Positions 927-58,287 of a stretch of DNA of 64,000 nucleotides are shown here, one piece after another. The DNA comes from Desulfovibrionaceae bacterium (lineage in GTDB: Bacteria; Desulfobacterota; Desulfovibrionia; Desulfovibrionales; Desulfovibrionaceae): assembly GCA_009783025.1 (NCBI GenBank), contig WRHY01000001.1, positions 62,001-126,000 on the forward strand, in the 5' to 3' direction. Numbering within the stretch: the stretch's first letter is position 1; every line of letters starts with the position of its first letter. The position numbers were made by a program, and so were the translations under genes. The notes under the pieces were generated by a model. That model was given only the letters and a program-made list of their open reading frames with translations. It was not told where the DNA came from and made no database searches.

Positions 927-3185
927 GTGTTCGGACGCCGTAAAACATCAGGAAGAACAAACAGCGCCGCCGGTAGAAAACAGACCGGAGTCTCGGCGCA
1001 TGGGCGGCGTTCCGCGACTTCAGACAAGGGAAAGAGCGGCCTCTTTTCCCGTCGTTCTTCCGCTGAAAATAAACGTACTCGTTCCGCGTCCAAACCGGCA
1101 ATGGAAAACGCCGCCCCGCGTGAAAGCCGTTGGGACTGGGGCCGGGTGCGGCTCTGGGCCGTGGCGGTCTGCTTTTCTTTACTCTGGGGCGCGCTTTGGG
1201 CTCGGGCTTATCATCTGCAAATTATTATGGGGCCGGAATACGCGGCTCTGGCCAAGCGGCAGCATACGACCAAGGAACAGGTTACCGGCGTGCGCGGCCA
1301 CATCATGGATCGCAACGGCAACGTGCTGGCCAGGAGCGTGGAATGCAGTTCCGTGGCGGCCAACCCGGCAAAAATTCAGGACAAGCAACAGGCGGCCTTG
1401 GCTCTGTCCAAGGCGCTGAAGCTGCCGGTTTCCCGTATTCTGGCCCAGTTGCAAGAGAAAAAGCAATTTGTCTGGCTGGCTCGCAAAATCGACTACCACA
1501 CGGCCGAGAGCATCAAAGCCCTGAACATTCCTGGGGTGTTTCTTGAAACCGAGTACGAGCGGGTTTATCCGTATAAGCATCTGGCCGGACAGTTGCTCGG
1601 CTTTGTGAATATCGACGACAAGGGCATTGAAGGTTTGGAAAAGGCCTTTGAAGGCGAGCTTTCCGGGCGTAGCGTGACCCGGATGGTGGAACGCGACGCT
1701 AGGGGCAACAGGCTCATGGCTGCGGGCACGGGTTCTTTGGTGGACCTGCGGGGCCGTAACATCCGGTTGACCCTTGACACCCAGGTCCAGTTTTTTGCCG
1801 AGGAAGCCCTGGCCGAGAACGTGGAAAAGTACGGAGCCCGCTGGGGTGGCTGTATAGTCGTGGATGTGCCCACAGGTGATATTCTGGCCTGGGCTCAGTA
1901 TCCTTTTTTTGATCCCAACAACACCAATGCAACGCCTCAGGCGGACCGCCGCAACCGGTTGGCCAGCGACATGCTGGAACAGGGGTCCACCATCAAGTCC
2001 TTCCTGATTGCCGCCGCGCTTGAAGAAAAGCTCGTGCAGCCGTCCACCATGATCAACTGTGAAAAGGGCCGGTGGAAACTGAGAAATATCGTGCTGCACG
2101 ATACTCACCCCTATTCCATTCTGCCGGTTGAAAAGATCCTGCACGTGTCCAGCAACATCGGCGTGGCCAAAATAGGCCTGATGCTGGGCGCGGAAAAATA
2201 CGGCGGCTACCTGGCCCGGCTCGGGTTTGGCGAGCGCACCGGTCTGCCGCTGGCCGGCGAGGCCAAAGGCATCTTGCGGCCGCCCGGCAAATGGAGCGAG
2301 GTAGACGTTGCCGCGGCTTCCTTTGGACAGAGTTTTTCGGCCACTGTGGCCCAAATGGCTCAGGCCTATCTGTGCCTGGCCAGTGGGGGCATCAAGCGGC
2401 CCCTGTATCTGGTCATGGACCAGGACAGGGAGTGTTCACTGGGCGAAGAAGCCACGCCGGGTTTCGCCGGGGAACGTCTTTTTTCCGAAGCAACCATGGA
2501 CAAGGTGCGCGGCATGCTGCGCGAAGTGGTGGAAGAGGAAGGCGGCACCGGCAAACAAGCCCGTATTCCCGGACTGGTTGTGGGCGGCAAGACCGGCACC
2601 GCGCAAAAGGCGGATAAAAGCGGCAAGTATGGTTCCGGCCGGGTGGGCTCCTTTGTGGGCATGATTCCCATTGAAGAGCCGCGTTATCTTGTCTGTGTAC
2701 TTTTGGATGAGCCGACCAAGGTACAGTACGGCGGCATTATTGCCGCGCCCGTATTTCGGCATGTGGCCCTGAATACCATGGCCTATCATGGTCTCTTGCC
2801 CGATTCGGACGACCCTCTGGTGCAGGAAGTGGCTCGTAAGGAAGCGGAGCGCAAACAGGCGGGCAATGACAAGGGGCGCAAAAACGATAAGAAGCCTGGC
2901 GGGCAGGCGGCCGGAACGGCGCGCGCGCTTGCTGAAACGCCCCCTGTTGAAGCGCGCGCCGCCACGGCAACCGTCCATACGCCTGTGCCGCGCGGTTCGT
3001 CCATTGTACCCGCGGTTACCGGCATGGGCCTGCGCAACGCCGTGGAGATTTTCGCCACTGAAGGCATTGTGCCGGTGATCAAGGGCAAGGGCGGCTTTGT
3101 GGTGCGCCAGACCCCGGAAGCGGGGCGCCCTTGGCCGGACGGCAAACGGGAATGCACATTGTGGCTGGAGGAGCGTTCTTCATGA
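927..3185 (+). CDS. ftsI: Septal peptidoglycan transpeptidase FtsI (PBP3) with PASTA domain
   Basis: This is the class B penicillin-binding protein that cross-links septal peptidoglycan. The 752 residues comprise a long basic cytoplasmic tail (1-65), one membrane segment (about 72-92), a dimerisation/pedestal domain and the transpeptidase domain. Active-site motifs are STIK with Ser354, SSN at 408-410 and KTGT from Lys555. A low-complexity linker (about 625-690) leads to one PASTA-like domain at the C-terminus. PASTA tails occur in Gram-positive and some deltaproteobacterial FtsI proteins but not in the E. coli enzyme. Translation probably starts at GTG 927, with AGGGA just upstream. The stop overlaps the murE start as ATGA. 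Confidence 0.95.
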   Translation: MFGRRKTSGRTNSAAGRKQTGVSAHGRRSATSDKGKSGLFSRRSSAENKRTRSASKPAMENAAPRESRWDWGRVRLWAVAVCFSLLWGALWARAYHLQIIMGPEYAALAKRQHTTKEQVTGVRGHIMDRNGNVLARSVECSSVAANPAKIQDKQQAALALSKALKLPVSRILAQLQEKKQFVWLARKIDYHTAESIKALNIPGVFLETEYERVYPYKHLAGQLLGFVNIDDKGIEGLEKAFEGELSGRSVTRMVERDARGNRLMAAGTGSLVDLRGRNIRLTLDTQVQFFAEEALAENVEKYGARWGGCIVVDVPTGDILAWAQYPFFDPNNTNATPQADRRNRLASDMLEQGSTIKSFLIAAALEEKLVQPSTMINCEKGRWKLRNIVLHDTHPYSILPVEKILHVSSNIGVAKIGLMLGAEKYGGYLARLGFGERTGLPLAGEAKGILRPPGKWSEVDVAAASFGQSFSATVAQMAQAYLCLASGGIKRPLYLVMDQDRECSLGEEATPGFAGERLFSEATMDKVRGMLREVVEEEGGTGKQARIPGLVVGGKTGTAQKADKSGKYGSGRVGSFVGMIPIEEPRYLVCVLLDEPTKVQYGGIIAAPVFRHVALNTMAYHGLLPDSDDPLVQEVARKEAERKQAGNDKGRKNDKKPGGQAAGTARALAETPPVEARAATATVHTPVPRGSSIVPAVTGMGLRNAVEIFATEGIVPVIKGKGGFVVRQTPEAGRPWPDGKRECTLWLEERSS

Positions 3186-4678
3186 TCAGGTTCGTGGCAT
3201 TTGAAGACCTCGCCGCTCGGGTGGAGGCCCGGCACATCCCCATTGCGACGCATTCGGGCAAGGTGGTGGAAGGCGGCGTTTTTGTGATCCTGCCCCCGCC
3301 CGTGCCCAAAGGCAGGGCAGAGGGAGCGCCGGGTTCGGAACAGTACTTGGCGGACGTGCTCAAAGCGCGGCCGGGAGCCGTTGTTTGCCAGCCCCGCCAC
3401 CTGCCGTTGCTGGAAGCCTTGAACGCGGATTGCGAGGTGGCCTTGCACGAGGACACCCGGACCTGCCTCGGGGTGCTGGCGCAAAAATACTACGGCACGG
3501 ACAAGCGCTGCCCCACGGTCGTCGGCATTACCGGCACCAACGGCAAAACCACGGAAACCTATTTGCTGGAGGCCTTGTTCACCGCCTTGGGCAAGCCCTG
3601 CGGGGTTATCGGCACAGTCAGTTATCGCTGGCCCGGCCATGAGGAAGATGCGCCGCTGACCACGCCGGACTGCCTGACCCTGCACGCCATGTTGGCGGAA
3701 ATGGACAAGGCGGGCGCAAAATATGCCTTTATGGAAGTTTCCTCACACGCCATTGATCAGAACCGGATCGCCGGCATCTGCTTTTCGGGCGCGCTCATGA
3801 CCAACCTGACCCAGGATCATCTGGATTATCACGCAGACCTGGAAGCGTATTTCGCGGCCAAGGAGCGGCTGTTCCTGCCTGTGGCCGAAGGCGGCCTGCC
3901 GCTGGACAACAAGGTGGCGGCCCTGAACGCGGACGACGAGTACTGCCGCCGCCTGCTCGCAAGACTGCCGGGCAGCATCGGTTTTGGCCTTGAACAGCGG
4001 GCGGCGCCCGGTACCCGCCATCTGGCCGGGCGTGTCCTGTCCATGTCTCCGCGCGGGCTGCACCTGGAACTCAGTTTTGAAGGACAACAGTGGAACCTGA
4101 ACTCCCCACTGGTGGGCGGCTTCAACGTGATGAACCTGCTCGGAGCGCAGGCTCTGGGCCTGGGGCTCGGGCTGCATCCCGGAGATTTCGCCGCCTTGTC
4201 CTCGTTCACCGGCGTATCCGGACGACTGGAGAGGGTTCCGGGCAACCAGGGTCTGCATGCCTTTGTGGATTACGCGCACACCCCGGACGCCTTGGTCAAG
4301 GCCATTTCCGCCCTGCGCGATGCCGGGTTCGCCCGGATCATCACGGTGTTCGGCTGCGGCGGCGACCGGGATCGCAGCAAGCGCCCGCTGATGGGCAAGG
4401 CCGTGGCCGGACTCACGGACATCGCGGTGCTCACTTCGGACAACCCGCGCAGTGAAGACCCCGAGGCGATCATGGCTGATGTGCTGCCGGGGCTGACAGG
4501 CTGCCCCTTTGTGATCACGCAGCCGGACAGAAGAGCCGCCCTGGCCGAAGCAGTGGCCCTGGCAGGTCCGGAAGATGCTTTGCTGGTGGCCGGAAAGGGA
4601 CATGAAACCTATCAACTTATCAAGGGGATCAAGTATCCCTTCAGCGATCAGGCCGTATTGCGGGAGTTGATGCAATGA
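3182..4678 (+). CDS. murE: UDP-MurNAc-L-Ala-D-Glu:meso-diaminopimelate ligase
   Basis: MurE adds the third stem-peptide residue in the cytoplasm using ATP. The 498-residue protein has the Mur-ligase P-loop GTNGKTT (Lys122), the central-domain motif EVSSHA and the C-terminal motif DNPR at 420-423. DNPR is the signature of meso-diaminopimelate specificity, as opposed to lysine. This agrees with lysA in the same window, although that enzyme consumes DAP. I chose ATG 3182 because GGAGGAG lies about 10 bases upstream and it overlaps the ftsI stop as ATGA. A longer in-frame extension exists but would run deep into ftsI. Confidence 0.97.
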   Translation: MIRFVAFEDLAARVEARHIPIATHSGKVVEGGVFVILPPPVPKGRAEGAPGSEQYLADVLKARPGAVVCQPRHLPLLEALNADCEVALHEDTRTCLGVLAQKYYGTDKRCPTVVGITGTNGKTTETYLLEALFTALGKPCGVIGTVSYRWPGHEEDAPLTTPDCLTLHAMLAEMDKAGAKYAFMEVSSHAIDQNRIAGICFSGALMTNLTQDHLDYHADLEAYFAAKERLFLPVAEGGLPLDNKVAALNADDEYCRRLLARLPGSIGFGLEQRAAPGTRHLAGRVLSMSPRGLHLELSFEGQQWNLNSPLVGGFNVMNLLGAQALGLGLGLHPGDFAALSSFTGVSGRLERVPGNQGLHAFVDYAHTPDALVKAISALRDAGFARIITVFGCGGDRDRSKRPLMGKAVAGLTDIAVLTSDNPRSEDPEAIMADVLPGLTGCPFVITQPDRRAALAEAVALAGPEDALLVAGKGHETYQLIKGIKYPFSDQAVLRELMQ

Positions 4679-6321
4679 GGCTGAATCTTGGTGAAATAAC
4701 CACAAGCCTGGGCTGTAGTCCCGGCGAATCCGCCCCTTGGGCGGATCTGGTCCCGACGGGCGCACAAATTGACAGTCGCAAGGTACAGCCCGGCAATCTG
4801 TTTTTCTGCCTTCCGGGTGAGCATGTGGACGGACATGACTTTGCTTTTGCCGCGGCCAAAGCCGGGGCTATCGCCATTGTGGCTTCAAGGAACCCGTGGG
4901 GCAACGATGCCGGAGACGCGGCCGATCTGGTCCTCCCGCCGGTTTTTCTGGTGGATAACGTGCGCCATGCCCTGGCTCGCGTGGCCACGCGCCATCGGGA
5001 GACCTGTCTGGCCAGGATCATAGGCATCACCGGAACCGCGGGCAAAACCTCGGTCAAGGAAGTGCTGGCCCAGGTGCTGGAAAGGCGTGGCCGTACCGAG
5101 CGTAATCCGCTGAATCTGAATAATCAGATCGGTCTGCCGGTCAGCATGCTCAATGCCTCGGCCGCCGCCGCTTTCTGGGTTATGGAAATGGGCATCAGCG
5201 AAGCCGGAGACATGGATGAACTTGGGGAAATTCTGCGTCCGGACGTAGGCGTTATTCTCAATGTGGGCGACGGGCATGTCAGCGGCCTGGGCGAACTTGG
5301 CGTGGCTGCCCACAAGGCCCGCCTGCTCGACTATATCCAGCTTGGCGGCGTGGCTGTTGTCAGTAGGGATTATGCCGATCTGAACCGGCAAGTTGATGAG
5401 CGGCGGAGCGCCCTGGCGCGCCGGGGCGTGCAGGTGCTGCGCTTTTCGGGTAGCGCCTCAGTTTGTCGTGATACTTCGTCAGGCTTGCTTTGTGCTCCGG
5501 GGCAGGACCAGAAGAGTCCAGCTCCATCGCCCAAAGCTACGCCTTCCTGGTCAGATCAGTCGGCCCCACTTGTTGCCGGCTCCGCTGTCTTGCACGATTC
5601 TGTCCATTGCGCGGCGGCAAAACATAGCGCAGACAAACTGAAACACTACCGCGATAGCGACGAAGTCTATGCCAGAGCCGCGTATGCCGGACCCGGCGTC
5701 GAAGGAGGCGTCTACAAGGTCTGGAGCAAAGACGTTCATTTTGCAGTGACCACCCCGTTCCGGGGCGATTTCGGCAGTGAGAATGTGGCCGCCATTGCGG
5801 CTGTCGCCATAAAGCTGGGTTTGTCCCAGGAGGCGATAAGCGAAGGTTTTGCCTCGGCCAGGCTCCCGGAACAACGCTTCCGTGCAGAGCGCTACCCGCG
5901 CTGTACCTTGCTGGATGACAGCTATAACGCCAACCCGCTGTCTTCCTCGCGCATGCTGCAGGCGGCAAGAAGCATGGCTGATGAATACGGGCAGTTCCTG
6001 CTGCTTGTCATGGGCGAGATGCTTGAACTCGGCTCCAAAGCCGAAAGCGCTCACGAGGCCCTGGGCGAAACCATGGCCGCGGTGAAGCCGGAAATGGTGT
6101 TCTGGAAAGGCGGACAGGGCGAGGCCATTGCGCGCGGCCTGCGCAAGGGCGGCTACAGCGGAAAATTGTATCCCCTGTCCGGCGCGCAGGAGTTTGATGT
6201 GTTGCTTGAGGAATCCGATCTGGACAATGTGTTGGTCCTGTTCAAGGGGTCGCGCGGTAATAAACTGGAACGCCTGGTTGCCGTCTTTCGGGAAAAGGTT
6301 TCCCCGGCCGGAGAAAATTGA
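4675..6321 (+). CDS. murF: UDP-MurNAc-tripeptide:D-Ala-D-Ala ligase with repeat-derived insertion
   Basis: MurF attaches D-Ala-D-Ala to complete the UDP-MurNAc pentapeptide. Family motifs are clear: N-terminal [14 protein letters not shown]-loop [21 protein letters not shown]-like [12 protein letters not shown] and [10 protein letters not shown] in the C-terminal domain. At 548 residues it is roughly 90 longer than usual. Residues about 259-298 are encoded by DNA nearly identical to the inverse complement of a separate terminal-inverted-repeat element at 58161-58287, so the insert is a captured mobile repeat kept in frame. Another ~45 residues after it also look unlike MurF. The insert sits late in the central ATPase domain, where a surface loop is plausible. 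Start overlaps murE by 4 bases and the stop touches mraY. Confidence 0.96.
5449..5566 (-). repeat. MITE-like element inserted in frame in murF
   Basis: This stretch matches the inverse complement of 58161-58287 over at least 105 bases, with about 11 differences by hand count. The left inverted repeat is preserved (GGTAGCGCCTCAGTTTG) while the right one has decayed. It contains no stop in the murF frame and encodes residues about 259-298. The same peptide ([14 protein letters not shown]) can be read from the corresponding frame of the intergenic copy. Orientation is given relative to the intergenic copy. The original insertion boundaries and any target duplication can no longer be recognised on the right side. 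Confidence 0.85.
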
Positions 6322-7397
6322 TGCTCTATAACCTGCTCTATCCCTTAAGCTCTGAATTCACGATTCTGAATGTTTTCAGGTACATCACCTTCCGCTCGGT
6401 CTGGGCTCTGCTCACGGCGCTGATCATCTCCATCCTTGTGGGTCCCTGGTTCATCAGGATGCTCAGACGCCTGAAGTTCGGGCAGTATATCCAGGAGGAC
6501 GTCAAAGCCCATCTGGAAAAGGCAGGCACGCCCACCATGGGCGGCGTGCTGATCGCCTTTTCCCTGCTGGTCAGCACCCTGCTTTGGGCTGATCTGACCA
6601 ATCCCTATGTCTGGCTGACCATTTTTGTCTTCATCGGTTTTGGCGTGGTGGGTTTTCTTGATGACTATCTGAAAATTCTGCGCAAGAACAACAAGGGCCT
6701 TTCCGCGCGCAGCAAGTTTCTGGGGCAGATTCTGATCGCGGCCGCGGCCATGGGCATGCTGTTTATGCTGCCCGCGTATTCCACGCAGTTGTACGTTCCT
6801 TTTTTCAAGAATCTTACCCCGGATCTGGGCTGGGCGTATCTGCCCTTTGCCGTATGCGTCATGGTGGGAGCGTCCAACGGGGTGAACCTGACCGACGGCC
6901 TGGACGGTCTGGCCATCGGCCCCACCATTGTGGCGGGCATGTGTTTTGCCGTGTTCATATACGTGGCCGGCAACGCGGCCATGGCGAGCTACCTGCAGGT
7001 AGCCAGTGTGCCCGGCGTCGGCGAGGTCACGGTGTTCTGCGGCGCGCTGATTGGCGCGAGCATGGGGTTTTTGTGGTACAACGCCTACCCGGCCCAGGTA
7101 TTCATGGGCGATGTGGGTTCGCTGTCTTTGGGCGGGGCTCTGGGCTTTATTGCCGTGCTCTGCAAGCAGGAGCTCCTGCTGCTGATCGTCGGCGGCCTGT
7201 TCGTGGTGGAAACCCTATCCGTGATCTTCCAGATCGGCTACTTCAAATGGACGGGCGGCAAGCGCTTGTTCCGTATGGCTCCTCTGCACCACCATTATGA
7301 GCTTAAAGGCCTGCCCGAATCCAAGATTATCATCCGTTTCTGGATCACCTCGGCCCTGCTCGGCCTGGCCGCGCTGTCCGTTCTCAAGCTGCGTTGA
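6321..7397 (+). CDS. mraY: Phospho-MurNAc-pentapeptide transferase (lipid I synthase)
   Basis: MraY moves phospho-MurNAc-pentapeptide from UDP onto undecaprenyl phosphate, giving lipid I in the inner membrane. The 358 residues form about ten hydrophobic segments. Family motifs are GTPTMGG (about 50-56), the DD pair in [17 protein letters not shown] and the catalytic-loop His cluster PLHHHYEL near the C-terminus. The ATG at 6321 shares its first base with the murF stop (TGATG) and has GGAG about 8 bases upstream. The length is normal for the family and nothing is unusual. Confidence 0.97.
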
Positions 7398-58160: not shown

Positions 58161-58287
58161 GGTAGCGTCTCAGTTTGGGGTTAGACGAGGAAGGCGCGGC
58201 TTTGGGCGATGGGGCTGGACTCTTACGGTCCTGCCCCGGAGCACAAAGCAAGCCTGACGAAGTATCACGCCAAACTGGGACGCTACC
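58161..58287 (+). mobile_element. 127-bp MITE-like element with terminal inverted repeats
   Basis: The ends GGTAGCGTCTCAGTTTGG and the inverse complement of 58268-58287 (starting GGTAGCGTCCCAGTTTGG) match at 18 of 20 positions, a strong pair of terminal inverted repeats. There is no gene inside and no transposase nearby, so any movement would depend on an enzyme encoded elsewhere. A diverged copy in the opposite orientation is built into murF (5449-5566). No target duplication is obvious. It lies between rpsB and dus, which are divergent. Confidence 0.8.

Follow-up and report, generated by a model that had tools for sequence, protein, structure and literature searches.

The gene for the UDP-MurNAc-tripeptide--D-Ala-D-Ala ligase MurF in the 64,000-nucleotide stretch of DNA analyzed here (the window) contains, in frame, a copy of a palindromic repeat that also occurs between genes and in frame within unrelated proteins. 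We consider it very probable that this repeat is a dispersed, non-autonomous element of about 127 bp that belongs to Desulfovibrionaceae-type genomes, is copied around, mostly stays outside genes, and is occasionally kept inside them in one reading frame.

A covariance model of the element gives four matches at only two places in the window, two of these matches being opposite-strand or partial. The intergenic copy is full length (127 bp; positions 58161..58287, minus strand; 119.4 bits) and is situated between rpsB on the minus strand and dusB on the plus strand (NCBIfam TIGR01011 and TIGR00737, the latter match lying below its cut-off). A preliminary description had noted inverted repeats at its ends; these are present (GGTAGCGTC...GACGCTACC), and the entire copy is a single imperfect palindrome. 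As had also been stated, the peptide is open in this copy: the frame giving the MurF-like peptide is fully open, and it is the sole one of the six for which this holds. The plasmid and phage collections contained no match to the intergenic copy, Rfam returned nothing for the window at gathering score, and a search of five loci against Rfam at E values up to 1 yielded one weak and unrelated match.

The copy within murF (5449..5650, plus strand) is 202 bp long and consists of the 127-bp element and a net 75-bp in-frame extra piece; together they encode residues 259-326. Its left 104 bp (5449..5552, plus strand) are 91.3% identical to the reverse complement of 58184-58287 (blastn within the window, 9 differences over 104 bp, E 6e-37), and the near-inverse-complement likeness earlier put by hand count at about 11 differences over some 106 bases is thus real. 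The right end had been placed too early, at 5566: the right terminal inverted repeat (CAAACTGAAACACTACC) is found at 5634..5650 (plus strand; in blastn, its 17 bp match the left terminus of the intergenic element at 88%), after the net 75-nt extra piece. This piece, the length of which is a multiple of three, lies within the stretch between the clear element parts (5553..5633, plus strand; alignment and blastn), with borders uncertain by a few bases, and blastn found no second copy of that stretch within the window. When the net 75 extra nucleotides are allowed for, 114 of 127 positions are identical between 5449-5650 and the intergenic copy in a pairwise alignment; the covariance model hit covers 5449-5570 (65.1 bits). 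Extra residues (about 24-25) inside the element are also present in a TrmD protein (P0132), at a different place and with a different sequence.

The host gene murF (4675..6321, plus strand; 548 amino acids) lies between murE upstream (3131-4678) and mraY downstream (6318-7397), both assigned by NCBIfam, and its own match to NCBIfam TIGR01143 (303.9 bits against a cut-off of 288.6) is split into two stretches. The first base of the insert is codon position 1 of residue 259, and its last base falls within residue 326. When the best 120 of 1,380 MurF sequences found, that of the window included, are aligned, the window's own protein is the only one with the element; the other 119 lack the segment. 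In this alignment, S258 and residue 333 of the window protein are 74 residues apart, compared with a median of 7 in the others, and the only other sequence with at least 30 residues at this position (P0036, 31 residues) does not contain the element peptide. The AlphaFold model of the window MurF (mean pLDDT 86.7, built on 52 sequences) has MurF proteins as its closest solved structures, and 263-327 is its sole segment of three or more residues with pLDDT values below 50. In the model, this segment is a loop that joins the strands 253-258 and 333-340, and it is predicted to be disordered. The closest named relatives of the protein, among the matches listed, are from Desulfovibrio; the nearest of the genomes compared, as judged by MurF, are G122 (69%) and others of the block G117-G134. 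A second MurF (P0004), which is 83% identical to that of the window, carries the element near its N-terminus and has none at the window's site. Because the two proteins carry it at different sites, one and the same gene has captured the element on two separate occasions.

Two peptide searches, one with residues 259-328 of the window MurF (41 candidates scored, 14 at E values up to 10, query included) and one with the element part of P0121 (18 candidates scored, 12 at E values up to 10, five of them new), traced the peptide beyond MurF. Its core is present in 19 of the 137 proteins examined, and these belong to 14 families: MurF (P0001, P0004), RlmN (two proteins), a CopA-type ATPase (two), glucokinase, TrhP, the RluA family, Fpg, YgiQ, NFACT, TrmD (two), QueH, an NrdG2-type activase (two), YbeY and TruA, with names taken from NCBIfam and Pfam matches, some of which fall below the NCBIfam cut-offs. 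Family models or solved relatives span or flank the element in Fpg, YgiQ, TrhP, CopA, TrmD, NrdG2, YbeY and NFACT; in RlmN it is situated at the C-terminus, and in the RluA-type protein the model match is restricted to one side of it. The two glucokinase insertions are at different sites in the alignment. A PDB sequence search with strict limits returned nothing for P0124, the glucokinase of genome G286 and P0127. Both peptide searches cover one reading frame of the element, and hence they provide no evidence that other frames go unused. The single aligned carrier among 120 MurF sequences, the related copies across genomes described below, and the occurrence of the peptide in 18 other proteins uphold the proposal that MurF contains a dispersed repeat in frame.

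The encoded peptide comprises about 43 residues and is hydrophilic. The residue that follows its kept HY pair is P, Q, L or R in 10 of 13 proteins (S or G in the other three), the pattern to be anticipated when the element's final C is joined to two bases of the host. On the TOP-IDP scale, the coding frame of the window peptide is above the next frame in hydrophilicity and disorder (0.263 versus 0.134), and the two frames of the G286 consensus are alike (0.151 and 0.146).

Among the 14 host families (P0121-P0137), six consist of enzymes that modify RNA (RlmN, TrhP, the RluA family, TrmD, QueH and TruA), and YbeY and NFACT have roles in rRNA maturation or on ribosomes. In a post hoc calculation that assumes 1.5-3% of genes to be of this type, the chance of at least six such families among 14 is 3e-8 to 2e-6.

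With blastn (E up to 0.001, the best three candidates per genome scored), the intergenic copy was matched in 17 of the 288 genomes of the family around G005. The consensus of twelve full-length copies is a hairpin with 40 pairs, and double compensating changes occur in 18 of these pairs. The covariance model matched 24 of 31 genomes picked as near the window by MurF or for their blastn matches, so that other genomes do hold related copies; the number of matches rises to 109 in G286, among the matches listed, and a single place may be counted once per strand. There are 103 model matches in G119, 12 in G122 and 4 in G123, and some of the matches in G119, G120 and G129 are to related hairpins that share mainly the core. 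One such related hairpin family (L094, L103, L109, L110, L113, L116) has ends like GGAAACGCTGA and the common core GGGGCAGGAC..GAGTCCAGCCCC. A peptide-profile search of 348 genomes of the order matched 47, many of them weakly. The search for copies covered the order around G005, and hosts may exist elsewhere. Just beyond the right end of several G286 copies (e.g., L217, L219, L223, L237, L243) there is a shared stretch like CTTGCTCAAAT, which possibly forms a longer composite element with them. G030-G037 also contain a different repeat, about 380 bp long at most, with dozens of matches per genome (L146:1-400 and many other places).

The location of copies relative to genes was surveyed without peptide bias for 201 distinct copies, 101 in G286 (from 60 of the 62 regions listed), 60 in G118 and 40 in G120; G122 and G123 were outside this survey. 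Open reading frames that span a copy with at least 30 codons on both sides number 43 over the six frames, i.e., 0.15, 0.33 and 0.20 per copy in G286, G118 and G120, respectively, versus 1.22, 1.69 and 1.27 for positions drawn at random from these loci, the rate for the element copies being lowered by their own stops. On the basis of this low rate, most copies are outside genes. The element is therefore not chiefly a gene invader; most of the copies examined are extragenic.

Pfam analysis of 24 of the 43 spanning frames found a family in 10 and none in 14. Two of the 201 copies, both read in one and the same frame and strand, were found to have homology to a family on either side: in the glucokinase of G286, the family matches 117-204 and 260-413 flank the element, and in PhnI of G120, the PF05861 match (3-367) runs through it, the copy being an 85-bp short variant. 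In two further G286 proteins (HolB and one of GH57/DUF3536), the coding frame continues through the element without a stop, and homology is confined to one side. All four of these copies, which were found by the covariance model, are in the sense strand and the same frame (four cases, assessed post hoc). A long coding-frame ORF in G118 (L276) belongs to no family. For G286, where 10 of the 15 spanning frames were scanned, three of the 101 copies fall in an ORF whose family homology surrounds or adjoins the element. Domain-bearing frames that read the element differently (SecA, AIRC, NAD_binding_7, Peptidase_M24 with Creatinase_N, Isochorismatase, ThiI) were rejected as hosts; in these six the domain is wholly downstream, so the element lies in a leader. 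Of 75 G286 copies, 41 have an open coding frame, 49 an open next frame and 31 one open antisense frame; since the next frame is open more often than the coding frame, stops alone do not force the choice of frame. Nor was a general coding constraint detected in G286: among 51 copies of the same length, 30 have an open coding frame, against an expected share of 0.555 when an equal number of changes is placed at random.

A case of long persistence is provided by TrpC. In all five genomes fetched (G030, G031, G033, G036, G037; L433-L437), the C-terminal tail of this protein, identified by PF00218 in a test on the G033 sequence, is derived from the element and read in the same frame (tail model scores of 55-56 bits); these tails were found by a peptide profile, and their frame is hence subject to one-frame ascertainment. 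The flanks are partly 93-96% identical among G031, G033 and G037. The TrpC tail has outlasted species divergence. The pooled pN/pS ratio is 0.37 for the 52 codons of the tail versus 0.21 for 200 codons of the body, in a small sample with pairs that are not independent of each other, and pS in the tail (0.104) is half of that in the body (0.220). The low pS of the tail indicates that its bases are constrained besides the residues, in keeping with a hairpin that itself has a role.

Left and right flank positions of 75 G286 copies match in at most 40% at any offset and thus give no signal of a target duplication, although old duplications could have decayed. At one intergenic locus followed over eight close genomes (L333-L341), no plain empty site was found at the DNA level: the hairpin is present in five of the six aligned sequences, query genome included, G030 and G034 give partial matches only, and the stretch after the gene in G035 is not alignable as a plain empty site. 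Since neither a plain empty site nor a target duplication was found, movement itself is something that we infer; the copies would have originated by transposition, and only tolerated insertions would have survived. The element length of 127 bp is 1 modulo 3, and in-frame insertion hence requires two more bases or one fewer. The terminal pairs of the 75 G286 copies tend to co-vary (GG..CC, AG..CT, TG..CA). At the intergenic L333-L341 site, close species have strongly divergent outer arms that stay complementary, and the apex is conserved. Judged from these alignments, the co-varying arms suggest that the element may be subject to arm-by-arm correction (template switching) or to selection for pairing.

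The same complementarity belongs to the evidence for a possible account, to which we give somewhat less than even weight, that the repeat is chiefly a hairpin, of RNA or DNA, that functions close to gene ends (terminator-like, mRNA-stabilizing or protein-binding) and is spread by recombination or template switching, its coding copies being by-products. The compensating changes in the stem and the low pS of the TrpC tail (0.104 versus 0.220 in the body) speak for it, as does the position of the G286 copies: in a crude ORF call for 90 copies (80 classified), 72 of 80 distances to gene 3′ ends are below 60 bp, and 39 of 52 copies between co-directional genes are in sense orientation. However, these gene calls are crude, 5′ ends are also near (56 of 80 below 60 bp), the TAG of the element closes ORFs in one frame, and copies occur in many unrelated contexts, the interiors of enzymes included. 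Such a role and mobility are compatible with each other. An artefact of assembly or binning that joined repeats into genes is exceedingly improbable; while the peptide hosts are mostly metagenome proteins, the same peptide and frame recur in 19 proteins from separate records, genome copies are present in PhnI and glucokinase, and all five genomes fetched for TrpC have one at the end of that protein.

Two routes of transposition by a transposase were considered. The preliminary description held that the element looks like a MITE. As such, it would be a truncated DNA transposon, mobilized in trans by a transposase that acts on its terminal inverted repeats and leaves a target duplication. Its 127-bp length, terminal inverted repeats, many copies and lack of a transposase gene agree with this, but the inverted repeat is the entire element and not just its ends, the flanks of 75 copies show no target duplication, and a search restricted to PF01797 found no longer parent element; we therefore retain the MITE as a candidate only, and a rather doubtful one. 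Y1 (HUH) transposases, in turn, leave no target duplication, and a REP/BIME-like element moved by a REP-associated enzyme of this type recognizing GTAG would accommodate the missing signal. Most of the 75 G286 copies have G-GTAG ends, and PF01797 is found in 16 of the 31 genomes, with ten matches in G119, itself a genome with 103 model matches. Yet eight genomes have at least 50 model matches, and in five of these (G286, G037, G031, G117, G120), the richest included, PF01797 was not found, in assemblies of unstated completeness; the other three copy-rich genomes have ten matches (G119), one (G118) and one (G033). Moreover, the element is one 127-bp hairpin that is GTAG-like at both ends, as opposed to REPs of 20-40 bp (PMC3733652), and we regard this route as unlikely.

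Among known repeats, the Rickettsia palindromic elements (RPEs) are the comparison drawn by the preliminary description, and the resemblance fits the anatomy of the element. RPEs are described as palindromes of 105-146 bp that have many copies, lie in intergenic regions or in frame within unrelated conserved genes, and encode a conserved peptide each; their target duplication is listed as unknown (PMC2229807, PMC10969869). One RPE-bearing protein tested, a guanylate kinase, was active with a changed substrate affinity (PMC2229807, PMC10969869). Like them, the element studied here is a palindrome of about 100-150 bp that forms one long stem-loop according to folding and covariation, has copies both between genes and in frame within unrelated conserved genes, and encodes a conserved peptide in one frame, the 19 proteins having been found by that frame only and the four covariance-model cases agreeing with it. 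Its host is not Rickettsia, which is in a different phylum from the host of the window, and the likeness is one of anatomy. A further difference is that three of 101 G286 copies are in family-homologous ORFs, whereas nearly half of the RPEs lie in ORFs according to PMC10969869. That 2024 review considers an RPE-like route of protein evolution conceivable in other prokaryotes.

PMC3733652 reports REPs in reading frames of several bacteria, many of them in replication and repair genes; GTAG REPs there measure 20-40 bp with stems of 5-13 bp, and more than half of the intragenic REPs are dimers or groups that code for 20-30 amino acids, larger clusters coding for 43-82. The intragenic GTAG/CGTC REPs in that text resemble our element in being palindromic and within ORFs, in their GTAG end and in offering a TAG stop to flanking ORFs, but differ from the 127-bp element, GTAG-like at both ends, in their one-end tag; the name Desulfovibrio does not occur in the text of PMC3733652 at hand. 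ERIC/IRU elements (also 127 bp) and YPAL/RU-2 of enterobacteria are alike in size, long stem-loop and frames fused in frame to genes, some of these fusions affecting conserved protein genes, but, compared by description, they are listed with target duplications (PMC2229807). Coding palindromes of nematomorph mitochondria share the presence of inverted repeats (theirs of up to 284 bp) within coding sequence, but these are in animal mitochondrial genes (PMC6649704). In the literature on palindromic repeats, MITEs and REPs of Desulfovibrio, Desulfovibrionaceae and sulfate reducers, as searched largely outside subscription papers, this family was not recognized. We class the element as a new family within an already known kind, the protein-coding palindromic repeats, and do not place it among the RPEs.

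We return to the dispersed, non-autonomous palindrome that we favor. In our view, it would be copied to new places and would mostly land, or survive, outside genes. Occasional copies would persist within genes where they are read in the one particular frame that gives the hydrophilic peptide of about 43 residues. In the two hosts that were aligned, MurF and glucokinase, the element is in a length-variable loop, with which the enzyme could still fold, and the element-bearing proteins are presumably made and active. We tentatively suggest, as a rather speculative extension, that the element may serve as a standing source of protein parts: the hairpin would be kept for a non-coding role near gene ends, one of its frames would happen to be a safe, disordered peptide, and copies would seed loops and C-termini, some of which would become fixed, such as the TrpC tail, and enzymes of RNA modification would make up a marked part of the hosts.

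Rickettsia is the best-known source of palindromic repeats in frame; shorter REPs and ERIC-type elements within genes are described for some other bacteria (PMC3733652, PMC2229807). In Desulfovibrio-type bacteria, the 127-bp element now accounts for about 20 sites in 18 gene families (the 14 from the peptide searches plus HolB, GH57, PhnI and TrpC), with two-sided homology not in every case. With the same peptide in MurF, TrmD, RlmN, CopA, Fpg and others, and with insert-free relatives for comparison, the cost or use of such insertions would become measurable, as would the making of new protein segments.
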